Origin: Tsuneonella rigui
GTDB lineage: Bacteria > Pseudomonadota > Alphaproteobacteria > Sphingomonadales > Sphingomonadaceae
Assembly (NCBI RefSeq): GCF_003958625.1
Contig: NZ_RSEL01000013.1
Span: 248,001 to 312,000, forward strand
Length of the DNA stretch: 64,000 nucleotides
Direction: 5' to 3'
The translations under genes were made by a program, and so were the position numbers. Below are positions 1-6,252 of this stretch, piece by piece. The notes under the pieces were generated by a model. The model did not search any database, was not told the origin of the DNA, and saw only the letters and a list, made by a program, of their open reading frames with translations. Position 1 is the stretch's first letter. The number at the start of each line of letters is the position of its first letter.

Positions 1-1
1 C

Positions 2-793
2 CGCAAGGGCAATCGCGGCCTCGCCATGCGGGCGGTGGTGCCGAACGCGATCACGGCGGCAGCGATGTGCTCGGGCCTCACCGGCATCCGCTTCGCGATG
101 GCGGGCATGTGGCGCGAGGCGGTGATCGCGGTGATCCTGGCAGGCGTGCTCGACGGGATCGACGGACGCATCGCGCGCCTGCTGCGCGCGCAGTCGCGCT
201 TCGGGGCGGAGCTCGACAGCCTCGCCGATTCGCTGAGCTTCGGGACCGCGCCGGCGCTAATCCTGTTCCTGTGGTCGCTCAACGACCTCACTCGGCTTGG
301 CTGGTTCGCGGCGCTCGCGTTCGCGGTGTGCGGCGCGCTGCGACTGGCGCGCTTCAACGCGCAGATCGATGTCAAGGAGCAGCCGCACAAATCGGCCGGC
401 TTCCTCACCGGCGTGCCCGCGCCAGTCGGGGCGGGCCTCGCGTTCCTGCCGGTCTATCTGTGGCTGGCGACGGGCGAGCCGATCTTCCGCGATTCGCTGC
501 TGGTCGCGCCGTGGACCGCGCTGATCGCGTTCCTGATGATCTCCAACGTCGCGACGCTGAGCTGGACGCTCATGCGCCCGCGCCGCGACGTGCGGCTGGG
601 CGTGATCCTGGTGGTGGGGATGGTGTTCGCGGCGCTGTTGCTGGAGCCGTGGTGGACGCTGGTGGCGATCTGCCTCGGGTACCTGGCGCTGCTACCCTAT
701 GCCTGGACCCGCTATGCGCGGATCAAGCGGCAGCGCGCAGCCGTTCCGGCGCTCGCACCCGCGACGGCCGAGCGACCGACCGTGCTGCTTTGA
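2..793 (+). CDS. pssA: CDP-diacylglycerol--serine O-phosphatidyltransferase, 5' end cut by window
   Basis: Joins L-serine to CDP-diacylglycerol to make phosphatidylserine, precursor of phosphatidylethanolamine, in the inner membrane. Counting from the Met codon at 26, residues 46-68 hold the CDP-alcohol phosphatidyltransferase motif DG-x2-AR-x8-G-x3-D-x3-D with every invariant residue present. The rest is hydrophobic (about six membrane segments), ending in a basic tail. The reading frame is open to the left edge (the codons before 26 read RKGNRGLA), and family members have such residues before RAVVPNAIT, so the true start lies outside the window; 26 is only an internal Met. The 3' end overlaps a small antisense gene by 71 bases. 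CdsA, which makes its substrate, is encoded at 5530. Sure of family, fairly sure of serine specificity from the gene order pssA-rpsB typical of sphingomonads. Confidence 0.9.
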   Translation, partial: RKGNRGLAMRAVVPNAITAAAMCSGLTGIRFAMAGMWREAVIAVILAGVLDGIDGRIARLLRAQSRFGAELDSLADSLSFGTAPALILFLWSLNDLTRLGWFAALAFAVCGALRLARFNAQIDVKEQPHKSAGFLTGVPAPVGAGLAFLPVYLWLATGEPIFRDSLLVAPWTALIAFLMISNVATLSWTLMRPRRDVRLGVILVVGMVFAALLLEPWWTLVAICLGYLALLPYAWTRYARIKRQRAAVPALAPATAERPTVLL

Positions 794-998
794 CTGGAGC
801 CGCCCGCAGCGCCGGCATGCGCTGGGCGGTTTCGATATCGGCGAACTCGACCGTCACGCGGCGCACGGCGTCGATCCGCGCCAGATCGCCCCGCAGCAGC
901 CGGAACGCGTTCCGGCCGCGAACGGCAGCATCGGCGAGGGTGACTGCACTGGCCAGCGCGATGGTGGCGAACAGTGCGACAAGCAGCGTGGCGATCAT
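723..998 (-). CDS. Small single-span membrane protein, function unknown
   Basis: A 91-residue ORF read leftward. Residues 1-25 form one strongly hydrophobic segment (MIATLLVALFATIALASAV), followed by a basic stretch rich in Arg and Ala, so a small inner-membrane protein with a charged cytoplasmic tail is likely. I do not recognise a family. Its last 71 bases are antisense to the end of pssA; the remainder fills otherwise empty sequence. The start ATG at 998 has only a weak ribosome site. Upstream, between it and rpsB, lies a GTTC-N7-GTTC direct repeat (1096-1110), the LexA-box form of alphaproteobacteria, about 100 bases before the start. SOS-induced cell-division inhibitors of alphaproteobacteria are also small single-span proteins, but that link is only an inference. 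It could still be a spurious ORF. Confidence 0.5.
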   Translation of the reverse strand: MIATLLVALFATIALASAVTLADAAVRGRNAFRLLRGDLARIDAVRRVTVEFADIETAQRMPALRAAPVKAARSVARPSRVRAPERLRAAA

Positions 999-1070
999 TT
1001 CTCGAGACCCTCATTGGCCGGCACAACCGCGTGGAGCGACTGTGGACAGCTAGTGGAAAACTCCGAATCG

Positions 1071-1110
1071 GTTCTTGTTCCCGATACGAGACAATGTTCT
1101 CTGTTTGTTC
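1071..1110. promoter_or_regulatory. Possible LexA (SOS) operator cluster of GTTC repeats
   Basis: GTTC occurs at 1071, 1077, 1096 and 1107. The last two are spaced exactly as GTTC-N7-GTTC, the direct-repeat operator bound by LexA in alphaproteobacteria. The cluster sits in the divergent region between the small leftward membrane-protein gene (start 998) and rpsB (start 1333). An eight-base match of this kind is expected about once per strand in 64 kb by chance, so the call is tentative; position and clustering raise it above background. Confidence 0.35.
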
Positions 1111-1332
1111 CACCGTGTCAAACGGTTTTCGCGACCGCCCGAATCTCACGCGCGACGAATTGATGGTGGATTTCCCGCATGCACCACGCTAAGGGGCCGC
1201 CCGTTCGCCGGACATCCAGCCGGGTGCCAGCGGGCAAATCCACATGGAGAGCGCCACATACCGGTGCCGTCTTCCGCGGGATCTCCGCGGCGGTTCCTGC
1301 TCTCCAGAGGCTCAACCGGAAAGGAATTACCT
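1111..1332 (+). other. rpsB promoter/leader region without a gene
   Basis: No believable gene is seen here; the ORFs crossing it are out-of-context readings. It must contain the promoter and 5' leader of rpsB. A short GC hairpin (CCGCGG, five-base loop, CCGCGG) lies at 1274-1290, about 43 bases before the start codon, and could form part of an S2 autoregulatory leader. The ribosome site is the purine run GGAAAGGAA ending at 1326. No convincing -35/-10 pair was found. Confidence 0.5.
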
Positions 1333-2103
1333 ATGGCGGCTCCTGTCGTCACCATGCAGCAATTGATCGAGGCCGGCGCGCACTTCGGCCACCAGACCCA
1401 CCGCTGGAACCCGCGGATGAAGCCGTACATCTTCGGCGCCCGCAACGGTGTGCACATCATCGATCTGTCGCAGACCGTGCCGCTGATGGCGCGCGCGCTC
1501 GATTTCATCCAGGACACCGTGCGTTCGGGCGGCAAGGTGCTGTTCGTCGGCACCAAGCGCCAGGCGCAGGAGCCGATCGCCGAGGCCGCGCGCCGTTCGG
1601 GCCAGCACTTCGTCAACCACCGCTGGCTGGGCGGCATGCTCACCAACTGGAAGACCATCTCGGGCTCGATCAAGCGCCTCAAGAGCCTCGAAGAGCAGCT
1701 CTCGGGCGACACTTCGGGCCTGACCAAGAAGGAAGTCCTCCAGCTCACCCGTGAGCGTGACAAGCTCGAGCTGTCGCTCGGCGGCATCCGCGACATGGGC
1801 GGCATCCCAGCGGTGATGTTCGTGATCGACGCCAACAAGGAAGACCTCGCGATCAAGGAAGCCGGCGTGCTCGGCATCCCGGTCGTCGCGGTGCTCGATT
1901 CGAACGTCGACCCCAGCGGCATCGCCTTCCCGATCCCGGGCAACGACGACGCCGCGCGCGCCGTCCGCCTGTATTGCGACGCGGTGGCCGAAGCCGCCTC
2001 GACCGGCAAGGGCCGCGCGACGATCGATTCGGGCGAAGATGTCGGCGCGATGGCCGAACCGCCGGCCGAGGTCGACGCCGCTGAGGCCGCCGCCGAAGCC
2101 TGA
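1333..2103 (+). CDS. rpsB: 30S ribosomal protein S2
   Basis: Component of the small ribosomal subunit, bound late near S1 at the platform. The 256-residue product starts [19 protein letters not shown]; residues 11-19 match the S2 family signature, and the strings [16 protein letters not shown] and [11 protein letters not shown]-like ([14 protein letters not shown]) segments are typical. The start at 1333 is chosen over longer in-frame options because it is preceded by AAGGAA at the right distance and matches family length; the frame is open upstream. The C-terminus is an acidic Ala/Glu-rich tail, common in alphaproteobacteria. It is followed by tsf after 83 bases containing a terminator-like hairpin, so the two are probably cotranscribed with attenuation. 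Confidence 0.98.
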
Positions 2104-2125
2104 TCGCCTCCGCGATTACCTGTTC

Positions 2126-2166
2126 GTGCGGCGCTGGGCTTCAATCCGGCGCCGCACCGCATTTTT
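2126..2166 (+). terminator. Attenuator-like hairpin between rpsB and tsf
   Basis: GTGCGGCGC (2126-2134) pairs perfectly with GCGCCGCAC (2149-2157); four more pairs including two G-U wobbles can extend the stem inward. Five T residues follow at 2162-2166. Placed between rpsB and tsf, it would lower read-through into tsf. A terminator at the same place is known in Escherichia coli, so the architecture is plausible, though four bases separate stem and T-run. Confidence 0.55.
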
Positions 2167-2186
2167 CTGACCAGAAGGAATTATAC

Positions 2187-3113
2187 ATGGCTGCTTTCAC
2201 CGCCGCCGACGTGAAGAACCTGCGCGAGAAGACCGGCGCGGGCATGATGGACGCCAAGAAGGCGCTCGAGCAGACCAATGGCGACATCGAAGCCGCGGTC
2301 GACGCGCTGCGCGCCAAGGGCCTCGCCACCGCCGCCAAGAAGTCGAGCCGCACCGCGGCCGAGGGCCTCGTCGGCGTCGCCGTCGAAGGCACCAAGGGCG
2401 TGGCGGTCGAGGTCAACTCGGAAACCGACTTCGTCGCCAAGAACGACAAGTTCCAGGACTTCGTCCGCAAGGTGACCGAAGTCGCGCTGGCTGAAGGCTC
2501 GGCCGACGTCGAAGCGCTCAAGGGCGCGGCCTACCCGGGCGGCGGTACCGTGACCGACAAGCTGACCGACAACGTCGCGACGATCGGCGAGAACCAGCAG
2601 GTTCGCCGCCTCAAGCACGTCTCGGTAAACGAAGGCGTGGTCGTGCCCTACATGCACAACGCCGCGGCGCCGAACCTCGGCAAGATCGGCGTGCTCGTCG
2701 CGCTCGAATCGAGTGCCGACAAGGGCGCGCTCGAAGCGCTCGGCAAGCAGCTCGCGATGCACATCGCCGCTGCCTTCCCGCAGGCGCTCAACGCCGAGGG
2801 CCTCGACGCCGAAGTGATCGAGCGCGAGCGCAAGGTCGCCGCCGAGAAGGCTGCCGAAAGCGGCAAGCCCGCCGAAGTGCAGGCCAAGATGGTCGACGGT
2901 GCGATCTCGAAGTTCGCCAAGGAGAACGCGCTGCTGAGCCAGGTCTTCGTGATGGACAACAAGACTCCCATCAGCGAGGTCGTGGCCAAGGCCGGCAAGG
3001 ACGCCGGCGCGCCGATCGTGCTCAAGGACTACGTCCGCTTCCAGCTCGGCGAAGGCATCGAGAAGGAAGAAAGCGACTTCGCCGCCGAGGTTGCGGCTGC
3101 GGTCAAGGGCTGA
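2187..3113 (+). CDS. tsf: Elongation factor Ts
   Basis: Guanine-nucleotide exchange factor that recharges EF-Tu with GTP in the cytoplasm. The 308-residue product has both EF-Ts signatures: the N-terminal UBA-like block [16 protein letters not shown] (residues 12-27) and the SETDFVAKN block with the TDFV core at 80-83 that contacts EF-Tu. Length and domain order (N-domain, core with two subdomains, C-terminal module) are normal for alphaproteobacteria. The ATG at 2187 is preceded by AAGGAA with good spacing. It lies downstream of rpsB in the usual order and ends in front of a strong terminator at 3135. Confidence 0.98.
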
Positions 3114-3134
3114 GCTGAGTGTAAAATTTGAAGG

Positions 3135-3167
3135 CGGCCGTCGGAGCGATCCGGCGGCCGTTTTCGT
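3135..3167 (+). terminator. Rho-independent terminator after tsf
   Basis: CGGCCGTCGG (3135-3144) pairs with CCGGCGGCCG (3151-3160) around a six-base loop; nine Watson-Crick pairs and one U-G wobble. It is followed by TTTTCGTTT. It lies 22 bases after the tsf stop and closes the rpsB-tsf unit. Confidence 0.88.
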
Positions 3168-3184
3168 TTGGGGCGAGCCTCGAC

Positions 3185-3310
3185 AAGGAAGCACTGGCCC
3201 GGATCAAGTCCGGGCCGACGATGATTGAGAGGTCAGCCCATTCGTCTAACGTCACCCCGGGAAGCGCAGCTCTGCAAAGCAGACTTGATCCGGGGGTAGT
3301 GCTGCCTCTT
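3185..3310. repeat. Paired palindromic REP/BIME-like element, forward then inverted, one copy enlarged
   Basis: Copy one (3185-3220) reads AAGGAAGCACTGGCCCGG...CCGGGCCGACG with an 8-bp GGCCCGGA/TCCGGGCC stem. Copy two (3250-3310) is the same unit in reverse orientation, but its loop carries about 22 extra bases (3261-3282), themselves containing GCAG-CT-CTGC. Two more pairs occur at 44329-44416 and 55102-55190. It fills the 280-base gap between the tsf terminator and pyrH. Confidence 0.8.
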
Positions 3311-3395
3311 CCCGACCCGCGCCCCCTTGGCAGCGGGCGCCATGCGATCTAACGCCGCGCAGTCCCGCCCGGCCGTTACACGAGAAACCAGCTTC

Positions 3396-4130
3396 ATGGC
3401 CCTGCCACCGCTCAAGCGCATCCTTCTGAAGCTGTCGGGCGAAGTGCTGATGGGCGGGCAGCAGTTCGGGATCGATCCCGCCTTCGTCACCGAGCTCGCC
3501 AAGGAAGTGAAGGCAGCCAAGGACACCGGCCTGGAAATCTGTCTGGTCATCGGTGGCGGCAATATCTTCCGCGGAATGGCCGGTGCGGCCGCGGGCATGG
3601 ACCGCGCGCAGGCCGATTACATGGGCATGCTGGCGACCGTGATGAACGCGCTCGCGATGCAGAACGCGCTCGAGCAGATCGGGGTGCAGACCCGCGTCCA
3701 GTCGGCGGTGCAGATGGACACCGTGTGCGAGCCGGTCATTCGACGCCGCGCCGAGCGCCACCTCGAAAAGGGCCGCGTGGTGATCTTCGCCGCCGGTGTC
3801 GGCGCGCCGTACTTCACCACCGACAGCGGCGCTGCATTGCGCGCAGCCGAGATGAAGTGCGATGCGCTGTTCAAAGGCACCAGCGTCGACGGGGTGTACG
3901 ATGCCGATCCCAAGAAGAAGGCCTCGGCAAAGCGTTTCGATAGCGTGAGTTACGACCGGGTCTTGGCAGACAATCTCAAGGTGATGGACGCTTCCGCCGT
4001 GGCGCTGTGCCGCGACAACGGAATCCCGATCGTGGTCTTCTCGATCCGCGAACAGGGCAACCTCGCGCGGGTGCTGAGCGGGCAGGGCGTCCAGACAATC
4101 GTTCAATCCGAAGTTCCAGGGGAAGCCTGA
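3396..4130 (+). CDS. pyrH: UMP kinase
   Basis: Phosphorylates UMP to UDP with ATP in pyrimidine nucleotide synthesis; cytoplasmic hexamer of the amino-acid-kinase fold. The 244-residue product shows the N-terminal LKLSGE block (residues 11-16), the glycine-rich GGGNIFRG loop (53-60), and the [10 protein letters not shown] and VYDADPKK segments used for UMP and ATP binding. Length is standard. The frame is open upstream; the ATG at 3396 is chosen because [16 protein letters not shown] matches family N-termini, although the ribosome site before it is weak. The stop overlaps the frr start (ATGA), indicating translational coupling. Confidence 0.97.
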
Positions 4131-4687
4131 TGGCAAAGTACGACAAGGCCGACATCGAACGGCGCATGAAGGGCGCGGTCGAGAGCCTGAAGAGCGATCT
4201 TGGCGGCCTGCGCACGGGCCGCGCCAACACCAGCCTGCTCGATCCGGTGGTGTGCGAAGTCTATGGCGCGATGATGCCATTGAATCAGGTGGCGACCGTC
4301 TCTGCGCCCGAGCCGCGCATGCTCAGCGTGCAAGTGTGGGACAAGTCGAACCTCACCGCGGTCGAGAAGGGCATCGCCAAGGCGAACCTCGGTTTGAACC
4401 CGATGATCGACGGCCAGACCCTGCGCCTGCCGCTGCCGGACCTCACCGAGGAGCGGCGAAAGGAACTCGCCAAGCTCGCCGGCGAGTACGGCGAGAAGGC
4501 CAAGATCGCCATCCGCAACGTCCGCCGCGACGGGATGGAGAACCTGAAGGACGACGAGAAGAAGAAGGACATCTCCGAAGACGAGCGCAAGCGCTCCGAG
4601 GATGACGTCCAGAAGCTGACCGACGCCCACGTCGCCGAGACCGACACCGTGGTCGCGGCGAAGGTGAAGGAAATCCTCTCCCAGTGA
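4130..4687 (+). CDS. frr: Ribosome recycling factor
   Basis: With EF-G it splits post-termination ribosomes into subunits. The product has 185 residues, exactly the usual size, and begins [33 protein letters not shown], a diagnostic block; the LPDLTEERRKEL and NVRRD segments of the three-helix bundle are present. It starts within the pyrH stop codon (TGATG), so it is coupled to pyrH, the classic pyrH-frr order. It is followed by a structured 121-base inverted repeat before uppS. Confidence 0.98.
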   Translation: MAKYDKADIERRMKGAVESLKSDLGGLRTGRANTSLLDPVVCEVYGAMMPLNQVATVSAPEPRMLSVQVWDKSNLTAVEKGIAKANLGLNPMIDGQTLRLPLPDLTEERRKELAKLAGEYGEKAKIAIRNVRRDGMENLKDDEKKKDISEDERKRSEDDVQKLTDAHVAETDTVVAAKVKEILSQ

Positions 4688-4718
4688 GCGGCCATGCGAT
4701 TGCCGTTGCAACATTTGC

Positions 4719-4839
4719 CCCTCTCCCCTTGAGGGAGAGGGAGGAGCGCCGCCAGGCGCGGAGGGAGAGGGGTCGGCGACGTCAGTCGCCGCCAAGGCGG
4801 CGAACCCCTCTCCCAACCCTCTCCCTCAAGGGGAGAGGG
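4719..4839. repeat. Nested inverted repeat between frr and uppS
   Basis: A perfect 23-base inverted repeat forms the ends (4719-4741 and 4817-4839), and each arm is itself a hairpin (CCCTCTCCC, five-base loop, GGGAGAGGG). Inside is an 11-bp inverted repeat (4763-4773 with 4804-4814) that encloses a 7-bp hairpin CGGCGAC/GTCGCCG (4774-4791). The right edge supplies the AGGGGC purine run used as ribosome site by uppS. Probably a dispersed palindromic element. Confidence 0.85.
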
Positions 4840-4856
4840 CTTAGGGGCGAATAACT

Positions 4857-5543
4857 TTGCCTCAAGGTTCGGCAGCAGTCGCACGTCACGTCGCGATCAT
4901 CATGGACGGCAACGGACGCTGGGCGAAGGCCCGGCACCTGCCGCGCGTGGTCGGGCACCAGCGCGGGGTAGAGGCGGTGCGCAAGCTGGTCCGCAGCCTC
5001 AAGGACACCCCCATCGAGTGCTTGACGCTCTATGCGTTCAGCTCCGAAAACTGGAAGCGGCCCGAGGACGAGGTCGACGACCTGATGAACATGATGCGCA
5101 AGTTCATCAAATCGGACTTGCCCGAATTCATCGCCAACGACGTCAAGCTGCACATCCTCGGCGACTGGCGCGGGCTGGCGCCGGACATCGTCGCGCTGCT
5201 TGACGATGCGCTGGCGCAGACCGCAAAGGGCAAGCGCACGCTGGCGGTGGCGCTCAACTACGGCTCGCAGCATGAGATTGCCCGCGCGGCGACCAAGGCG
5301 GCGGCGGAGGGTGAGATCACGGCGGAGAGCATCGAGCGCCACCTCGACACCGCGCCGCTGCCGCCGCTCGATTTGCTCATCCGCACCAGCGGCGAGGTGC
5401 GACTTTCGAACTTCCTGCTGTGGCAATGCGCCTACGCCGAGATGATTTTTACCGATGTCCTGTGGCCGGATTTCACCCCTGCGCATTTGAACGATGCGCT
5501 AGAAGAGTTCGCGCGCAGGGAGAGACGATATGGCGGACGCTGA
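4857..5543 (+). CDS. uppS: Undecaprenyl diphosphate synthase (cis-prenyltransferase)
   Basis: Builds the C55 lipid carrier for peptidoglycan by adding isopentenyl-PP units to farnesyl-PP. The 228-residue product has the catalytic block HVAIIMDGNGRWA with Asp17, the SSENWKRP substrate segment, and the C-terminal LLIRTSGEVRLSNFLLWQ and FTDVLWPDF blocks. The start is a TTG at 4857: an in-frame stop lies at 4842 and no ATG/GTG occurs before the catalytic Asp, while AGGGGC at 4843-4848 gives an eight-base spacing. That ribosome site is contributed by the end of the preceding inverted repeat. It overlaps cdsA by 14 bases. Confidence 0.96.
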   Translation: MPQGSAAVARHVAIIMDGNGRWAKARHLPRVVGHQRGVEAVRKLVRSLKDTPIECLTLYAFSSENWKRPEDEVDDLMNMMRKFIKSDLPEFIANDVKLHILGDWRGLAPDIVALLDDALAQTAKGKRTLAVALNYGSQHEIARAATKAAAEGEITAESIERHLDTAPLPPLDLLIRTSGEVRLSNFLLWQCAYAEMIFTDVLWPDFTPAHLNDALEEFARRERRYGGR

Positions 5544-6252
5544 CGCGCCCGAAGCGGTGACGGGGAAACGCAGCGACCTGCCCGTGCGGCTGGCCTCGGC
5601 GGTGATCATGCTGGCGGTGGCGATCGCCGCGCTGGTGATCGGCGGGCGAGTGTTCGACACCTTCGTCGTGTTCGTCGCGCTGGCGGCGTTCGTCGAGTTC
5701 ATCCTGCTGGTGGTGAAGGCGACGGGCAACATCGCCTTTCGGCTCGCGGCGATCATCGCTGGTGCGCTGTACTTCGGCCTCGCCGGCGGTGTGCTGGCCG
5801 GCGCGGGGGATTTCCTCATCGTACTGATCGTCGGGGTCACCGTGTTCACCGATACCTTCGCCTTCTTCACCGGACGCGCGCTGGGTGGGCCGAAGGTCGC
5901 GCCCTCGATCAGCCCGAACAAGACCTGGTCCGGCCTGATCGGCGGGATGATCGGCGCGGCGCTGTGGCTGGTGCTGTGGGTGGTCGCGATCGACGGCGGG
6001 ATCGCCGGGCCGCGGTTCGAGTTGGGCCTCGCCTTGAACGGCGACAACCTCGGCACTGCGGCGCTGCTAGGGGCGGGCCTCGCGGTACTGGCGCAGGCGG
6101 GTGATTTCTTCGAAAGCTGGCTCAAGCGGCGGGCGGGGGTAAAGGACTCCTCGAAGCTCATTCCCGGTCACGGCGGGGTGTTCGACCGGATCGATGGGAT
6201 GATCCCGGTCGCCATCGCGGTCGGCGCGCTCGGGACGATCCTGGTCAACTGA
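5530..6252 (+). CDS. cdsA: Phosphatidate cytidylyltransferase (CDP-diacylglycerol synthase)
   Basis: Makes CDP-diacylglycerol from phosphatidate and CTP in the inner membrane; the product feeds PssA and PgsA, both encoded in this window. The 240-residue protein has about seven hydrophobic spans and the CDS signature S-x-x-K-R-x4-KD...HGG-x-x-DR near the C-terminus (residues 196-220). It is shorter than the E. coli enzyme, as is usual in sphingomonads. Start overlaps uppS by 14 bases and stop overlaps the dxr start (ATGA), so it lies in the middle of a coupled envelope operon. Confidence 0.95.
   Translation: MADADAPEAVTGKRSDLPVRLASAVIMLAVAIAALVIGGRVFDTFVVFVALAAFVEFILLVVKATGNIAFRLAAIIAGALYFGLAGGVLAGAGDFLIVLIVGVTVFTDTFAFFTGRALGGPKVAPSISPNKTWSGLIGGMIGAALWLVLWVVAIDGGIAGPRFELGLALNGDNLGTAALLGAGLAVLAQAGDFFESWLKRRAGVKDSSKLIPGHGGVFDRIDGMIPVAIAVGALGTILVN

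Follow-up and report, generated by a model that had tools for sequence, protein, structure and literature searches.

Introduction

SulA is a short-lived SOS division inhibitor that is cytoplasmic and targets FtsZ. Small membrane proteins that stop septation form a recurring theme beside it. In Caulobacter crescentus, the 29-aa SOS-induced inner-membrane protein SidA acts on FtsW (PMC4211646). SosA of Staphylococcus aureus is likewise SOS-induced, has 77 aa with one N-terminal span, and requires its C-terminus for turnover (PMC6851548), while YneA of Bacillus subtilis, which has a periplasmic LysM domain, binds FtsW (PMC13396833). The LexA motif of Caulobacter is GTTCN7GTTC (PMC12700426). With regard to protein removal, ssrA tags commonly end in LAA, and a title cited in the same source states that FtsH degrades an ssrA-tagged inner-membrane protein (PMC9382460).

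For the sphingomonads, a literature search run mostly on titles and abstract beginnings, with subscription papers mostly outside its range, returned neither a described SOS division inhibitor nor a report of the gene presented below. In Sphingopyxis granuli, lexA, recA, radA, dinG and imuAB-dnaE2 are upregulated in anoxia, and no such small gene appears among the selected genes in the main-text part of that study (PMC6472365). We analyzed a 64,000-nucleotide stretch of the Tsuneonella rigui genome (hereafter the window; NZ_RSEL01000013.1, positions 248,001 to 312,000) and propose, with a probability of roughly 0.58, that its ORF at 723-998 on the minus strand is a LexA-repressed SOS gene whose product is a division inhibitor working like SidA and SosA, but oriented N-out/C-in and bearing an ssrA-like degron. 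The gene is a single, strongly conserved candidate SOS division inhibitor for sphingomonads, and it would add a topology to those already represented among small membrane proteins of this type.

A small gene behind a LexA-type promoter

The ORF (723-998, minus strand; stop at 723-725) encodes 91 aa with an N-terminal membrane helix, as predicted, and a basic tail, and it diverges from rpsB (ribosomal protein S2, PF00318; 1333-2103, plus strand, ATG at 1333), which confirms the arrangement described in an earlier note on this DNA. Upstream of the ORF, the box GAAC-N7-GAAC occupies 1096-1110 of the minus strand (GTTCTCTGTTTGTTC on the plus strand), and two further GAAC half-sites lie downstream of it at 1077-1080 and 1071-1074; the note had located the box and both extra copies, as GTTC on the plus strand, correctly. 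A -35 element, TTGACA, is found at 1116-1121 and a presumed -10 element, AACATT, at 1093-1098, where it overlaps the second half-site of the box. With its 17-nt spacer, TTGACA-N17-AACATT on the minus strand thus makes up a sigma-70-like promoter that overlaps the box, while a stricter consensus promoter scanner reported no promoter at this place.

The same motif, GTTCN7GTTC, precedes lexA, recA, uvrA, uvrD, mmcB, radA-like and RNR genes in the T. rigui genome, as identified by scanning 20 neighboring ORFs. Using a matrix built from 75 orthologous boxes, with the site of T. rigui itself left out, we ranked the 71 genomic sites, and the site upstream of the small ORF came first (score 30.9; next 27.4). 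The boxes of lexA, recA and uvrA rank 14th, 15th and 23rd, and the matrix therefore also captures features that are special to the promoter of the small ORF. LexA-type SOS regulation of the small ORF is strongly supported by these sequence comparisons and by the conservation of the box described below, which bear out the earlier reading of a putative LexA box in front of a small membrane protein gene.

The encoded protein and its proposed action

All 10 same-genus genomes searched contain a match to the ORF, at E 1.5e-5 or better. More widely, 75 of the 76 exact boxes found upstream of rpsB in the sphingomonad family are followed by an ORF of 69-111 residues with one span, whose start codon is 55-174 nt away from where the box begins. 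The median dN/dS is 0.24, with all 22 pairs below 1 (equal-length pairs of 72-99% identity), and by this measure the ORF is evolving as a protein under purifying selection. Conservation of the ORF, on which the earlier note had staked its reading, is thus found within the genus, behind the boxes and in the substitution pattern.

The family ORFs were called without using the C-terminus, and 70 of the 75 end in Ala-Ala (50 in AAA, 11 in VAA), compared with 3 of the 48 long ORFs of the window; the other five family ORFs lack this ending. In the set of 97 copies taken from named contigs, with L044 and L045 added, the ending is present in 93 of 99. Lysine and arginine are absent before the span and average 2.5 in the 15 residues after it, and in 74 of 75 ORFs the part after the span holds more of them. 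Their absence ahead of the span is partly favored by our choice of start codon, which tends toward a short N-terminus. The net charge of the tail is positive, again in 74 of 75. From this charge distribution, an N-out/C-in topology is predicted.

AlphaFold2, run with 64 sequences, gave one helix (residues 2-45) followed by a less confident tail, with a mean pLDDT of 82.5 and a pTM of 0.47. Foldseek returned no match at E<=10, which is expected for a protein consisting of one helix with a loose tail, and a PDB sequence search gave nothing better than E 0.5. None of the 64 family members matched Pfam at E<=0.01. A single NCBIfam match of one member to FecD (E 0.0054) was taken as a chance match between hydrophobic sequences. 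Scanning a collection of 84,980 genomes with the T. rigui protein itself gave 593 pattern matches, none of which was confirmed as a relative, as the protein evolves too fast to be followed by that route.

The promoter, the box, the ORF, the selection on it and the Ala-Ala ending are observed, and they can be joined into a scheme in which we infer LexA occupancy, topology in the cell, the divisome target and proteolysis. LexA on the box, which covers the spacer and the -10 of the sigma-70-type promoter, would repress the ORF, and LexA cleavage upon DNA damage would switch it on. The product would then be inserted with its N-terminus outside and its basic tail in the cytoplasm, as predicted from charge. 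Its membrane helix may bind a late division protein of the FtsW/FtsI/FtsN complex and hold septum synthesis, as SidA, YneA and SosA suggest. The C-terminal Ala-Ala, by analogy with ssrA tags, would expose the protein to a cytoplasmic AAA+ protease (ClpXP or FtsH), whose quick removal of it would let division resume. By the same analogies, a division-inhibitor function is likely, and the small protein is a good candidate for a brake on cell division during DNA repair.

The resemblance to the described inhibitors is partial in each case. Like SidA, the protein is a small inner-membrane protein, as predicted, of an alphaproteobacterium whose LexA regulon has GTTCN7GTTC boxes (PMC4211646, PMC12700426), but SidA has 29 residues, whereas the protein here has 91, carries a basic tail and ends in Ala-Ala, a comparison made by description. 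With SosA it shares small size and a single N-terminal span, it is probably SOS-controlled as well, and its conserved C-terminus may direct turnover as that of SosA does; however, the C-terminus of SosA is predicted outside the cell, where it is a proposed CtpA substrate (PMC6851548), whereas the tail here is predicted inside. YneA and ChiZ are also SOS- or DNA-damage-induced single-span division inhibitors, yet they have LysM domains, and Pfam detects none in the small ORF (own protein and 64 members). A C-terminal part outside the cytoplasm, as in SosA and YneA, is the opposite of what charge predicts for 74 of the 75 family ORFs. SulA has no match in the T. rigui genome at E<=1, and PF03846 is not found in the small ORF. 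As for the ending, it resembles the organism's own tmRNA tag, ANDNEALALAA, which ends in ALAA and hence also in -AA, but it differs from a tag in being encoded in the genome and in being mostly AAA or VAA. It is thus a putative degron, and apparently a built-in removal tag.

Peptides of the TisB/DinQ kind typically have an antisense-RNA antitoxin. The small protein could be LexA-controlled and still be no division inhibitor, acting instead as an SOS peptide of this kind that lowers the membrane potential or slows growth. A lone hydrophobic helix expressed from a LexA-type promoter would suit such a role, and DinQ and TisB of E. coli are SOS-controlled membrane peptides (PMC3567139, PMC8145889); the length of 69-111 residues, the long basic tail and the conserved Ala-Ala end fit it poorly, and we consider this reading unlikely.

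The antisense overlap with pssA

The 3' end of the small ORF overlaps by 71 nt a convergent pssA-like gene for a CDP-alcohol phosphatidyltransferase (PF01066, PF08009; 26-793, plus strand), whose start at 26 is uncertain as the open frame runs to the edge of the window. The final stretch of the small ORF, at 723-734 on the minus strand, encodes Ala-Ala-Ala and the stop and lies antisense to pssA codons. The same tail-to-tail overlap in the same phase was found in 82 of 90 loci; one has another phase, one abuts, and in six pssA was not recognized. Even among 16 loci found away from rpsB, pssA adjoins the gene in 14 and rpsB was seen in only one, which makes pssA the constant partner in place of rpsB. 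The earlier placement beside rpsB holds for the divergent neighbor at this locus, but the constant neighbor across genomes is pssA.

The overlap by itself could have produced the Ala-Ala ending. Since the end lies within pssA, the idea that the ending is free of other constraint was ruled out, and the copies away from rpsB were rejected as an overlap-free control because 14 of 16 are still beside pssA. Two observations bear on this point. Over Ala-Ala-stop, the arginine codons of pssA are CGG in 78 cases, AGG in 46 and others in 13 (CGG plus AGG, 124 of 137), as against 831 CGG plus AGG codons among 2327 arginine codons elsewhere in pssA (AGG 111, 5%); since the genomes counted are related to one another, the cases are not independent. 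Where the PssA residues have changed (VTPP, AMQP, VMRR, VTRR and AMRR; L373, L384, L385, L374, L090 and L112), the antisense strand still reads Ala-Ala-stop, with TGA, TAG or TAA as the stop. Because of the codon skew and the retention of the ending where PssA changes, we doubt that the overlap alone is its source, and the simplest reading of these sequences is that the antisense frame is under selection. The C-terminal signal would thus be maintained through an antisense overlap with a gene of phospholipid synthesis.

Such a constant arrangement raises the question of whether the main role lies at pssA itself, with SOS-induced antisense transcription into its 3' end, or the protein acting on PssA, lowering phospholipid synthesis after damage. 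The same-phase overlap in 82 of 90 loci and the persistence of pssA in 14 of 16 loci away from rpsB speak for such a role, but the substitution pattern (dN/dS 0.24) points to selection on the encoded protein, and the Ala-Ala ending persists at loci with differing PssA residues, which makes such a role improbable. A combined form, in which the small SOS protein and pssA are one device, the degron antisense in pssA dictating the PssA C-terminus (YxR[VI][KR]RQR-like) and SOS transcription into pssA lowering phospholipid synthesis as septation halts, is quite doubtful as well. If it were true, one promoter would let DNA damage brake the growth of septum and membrane alike.

At the 3' end of pssA (690-793 of the window), a PssA end motif, Y-A/G-R/K-V/I-K/R-R/Q, is common in the sphingomonad family. 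It was present in none of the seven readable PssA ends from other families (22 loci, 15 of them unrecognized by the motif used), and it is also missing in G074 and G083, the two genomes that gave no SOS promoter. The motif may be imposed by the antisense ORF.

Conservation of the promoter at rpsB and elsewhere

Returning to the proposed division inhibitor under LexA control, its promoter was followed through 101 genomes of the sphingomonad family, namely the first listed of each of 96 genera (T. rigui included) and 5 extra, out of 149. The box was scored within 700 bp upstream of rpsB, and two loci cut by contig ends were kept in the denominator. It is present in 76 of 101 genomes, compared with 1 for the reverse orientation and 3 for the control CTTGN7CTTG, so that the conservation in relatives, whose absence the earlier note had named as refuting its reading, is indeed found. 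Before this survey, all 17 loci inspected (own included; 17 of 30 returned) had been found to carry the box. Outside the family, it was seen in 0 of 22 rpsB loci from other families of the order and in 1 of 28 from other families of the class (28 of 37 such matches), the latter without TTGAC and without a membrane ORF.

Other promoter elements are conserved to various degrees. Of 75 family loci, 65 have TTGAC no more than 16 nt upstream of the box and the other 10 lack it at the expected position; at the -10, AACATT is present in 20 and AACATA in 19. A further GAAC stands 5-36 nt beyond the box in 54 of the 75 loci (T. rigui counted) against 12.1 expected from shuffling; the other orientation gave 11 of 75 and a control stretch 5 of 61. 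The extra GTTC copies are therefore not noise but match a conserved third half-site. Together, these sequences look like a damage (SOS)-type switch kept across most of the sphingomonad family.

A stringent form of the promoter pattern, searched in the 84,980-genome collection, returned 116 stretches. In 94 there is a small membrane ORF whose last two residues are Ala or Val, and rpsB lies no farther than 900 nt away in 85 of them and was not seen in 9; the remainder comprises 5 with rpsB and an ORF that was not called automatically, and 17 others. Ten ORFs scanned behind non-sphingomonad matches to this pattern gave two dnaE-like, one RNR and one radA-like gene, and six with no match.

The exact box is missing in 25 of the 101 rpsB loci. 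Four of these (L063, L085, L129 and L131) still have, close to rpsB, a weakened form of the promoter and an ORF that ends in Ala-Ala. The other 21 genomes were used for a blind test, in which the promoter geometry alone was searched and one fixed ORF caller applied. This gave 26 matches in 19 of the 21 genomes, with a small membrane ORF behind 17 and an Ala-Ala-ending one behind 14, across 14 genomes, while the corresponding frequencies at 4000 random positions were 4.8% and 0.475%. LexA is present in all 21, as it is in G063, where the gene is present. Applied to 42 genomes from other families of the order, the search gave 28 matches, of which 4 had a small membrane ORF and none an Ala-Ala-ending one; behind 9 of the 28 are uvrA- (4), lexA- (3) and ssb-like (2) ORFs, called by eye without a family search.

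In total, 95 of 101 family genomes have a membrane ORF downstream of either the exact box or an SOS promoter close to consensus (the exact box in 75, a weakened promoter in the vicinity of rpsB in 4, blind matches ending in Ala-Ala in 14 and blind matches with another ending in 2, L380 and L386), and an Ala-Ala-ending copy in 88. No convincing copy was found in six (L116, L375, L377, L390, G074 and G083): L116 has the box, but only a 52-aa hydrophobic ORF, and the promoter-geometry search gave no match in G074 and G083.

These surveys also bear on whether the box controls rpsB and not the small ORF, as its position 5' of rpsB in 76 of 101 genomes might suggest; the -35 and -10 elements point away from rpsB, and 13 of 14 blind matches have the small ORF in a 3-kb locus where rpsB was not recognized, making such control very improbable. 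The bare motif is at chance level, as the earlier note had rightly estimated, with 2 occurrences in the window against a shuffle mean of 1.73, and 71 sites in the 2.86-Mb genome against 71 for the reversed control pattern. A chance motif beside a spurious ORF is nevertheless rejected as extremely improbable, given box and ORF conservation beyond controls, the composite TTGACN6GAACN7GAAC (one occurrence in the window, 0 in 100 shuffles), the dN/dS of 0.24 and the success of the blind search.

Further features of the leader and related loci

Several single loci deserve mention. In L129, two tandem small membrane ORFs lie 5' of rpsB, ending in SEAA and PEAA, and the second has its own near-consensus SOS promoter, a possible duplication. 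The copy in L390 (G064) has 35 aa behind the promoter, with the helix kept and the basic tail and Ala-Ala lost. In L398, L402 and L418, from other alphaproteobacterial families, an SOS-type promoter is followed by possible hydrophobic ORFs of 30, 33 and 44 residues, a size near that of SidA. Within the T. rigui genome, high-scoring LexA-type boxes (L020, L019, L316 and L025) lie beside radical-SAM, pyridoxamine-oxidase-like, glyoxalase-like and GFA-domain genes, which are possible further SOS genes or chance.

The 5' leader of the small ORF contains an inverted repeat, CACAGTCGC-TCCAC-GCGGTTGTG, upstream of the ATG (1022-1044, minus strand). In part of the relatives a similar hairpin, its arms altered, lies some 20-25 nt ahead of the start codon, and the stem score is above the mean of own shuffles in 47 of 68 leaders, the hairpin being judged from single-sequence folds and this simple score. 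An RNA consensus fold of the leader, made on a gap-rich alignment, gave no structure, and Rfam over positions 1-6000 of the window gave nothing above gathering scores, with three chance-level matches below. A DnaA-box-like TTNTCCACA on the sense strand is enriched in the leader (1022-1059 of the window), where it occurs in 28 of 75 loci compared with 1 of 75 in a control region, and it may be part of the leader hairpin.
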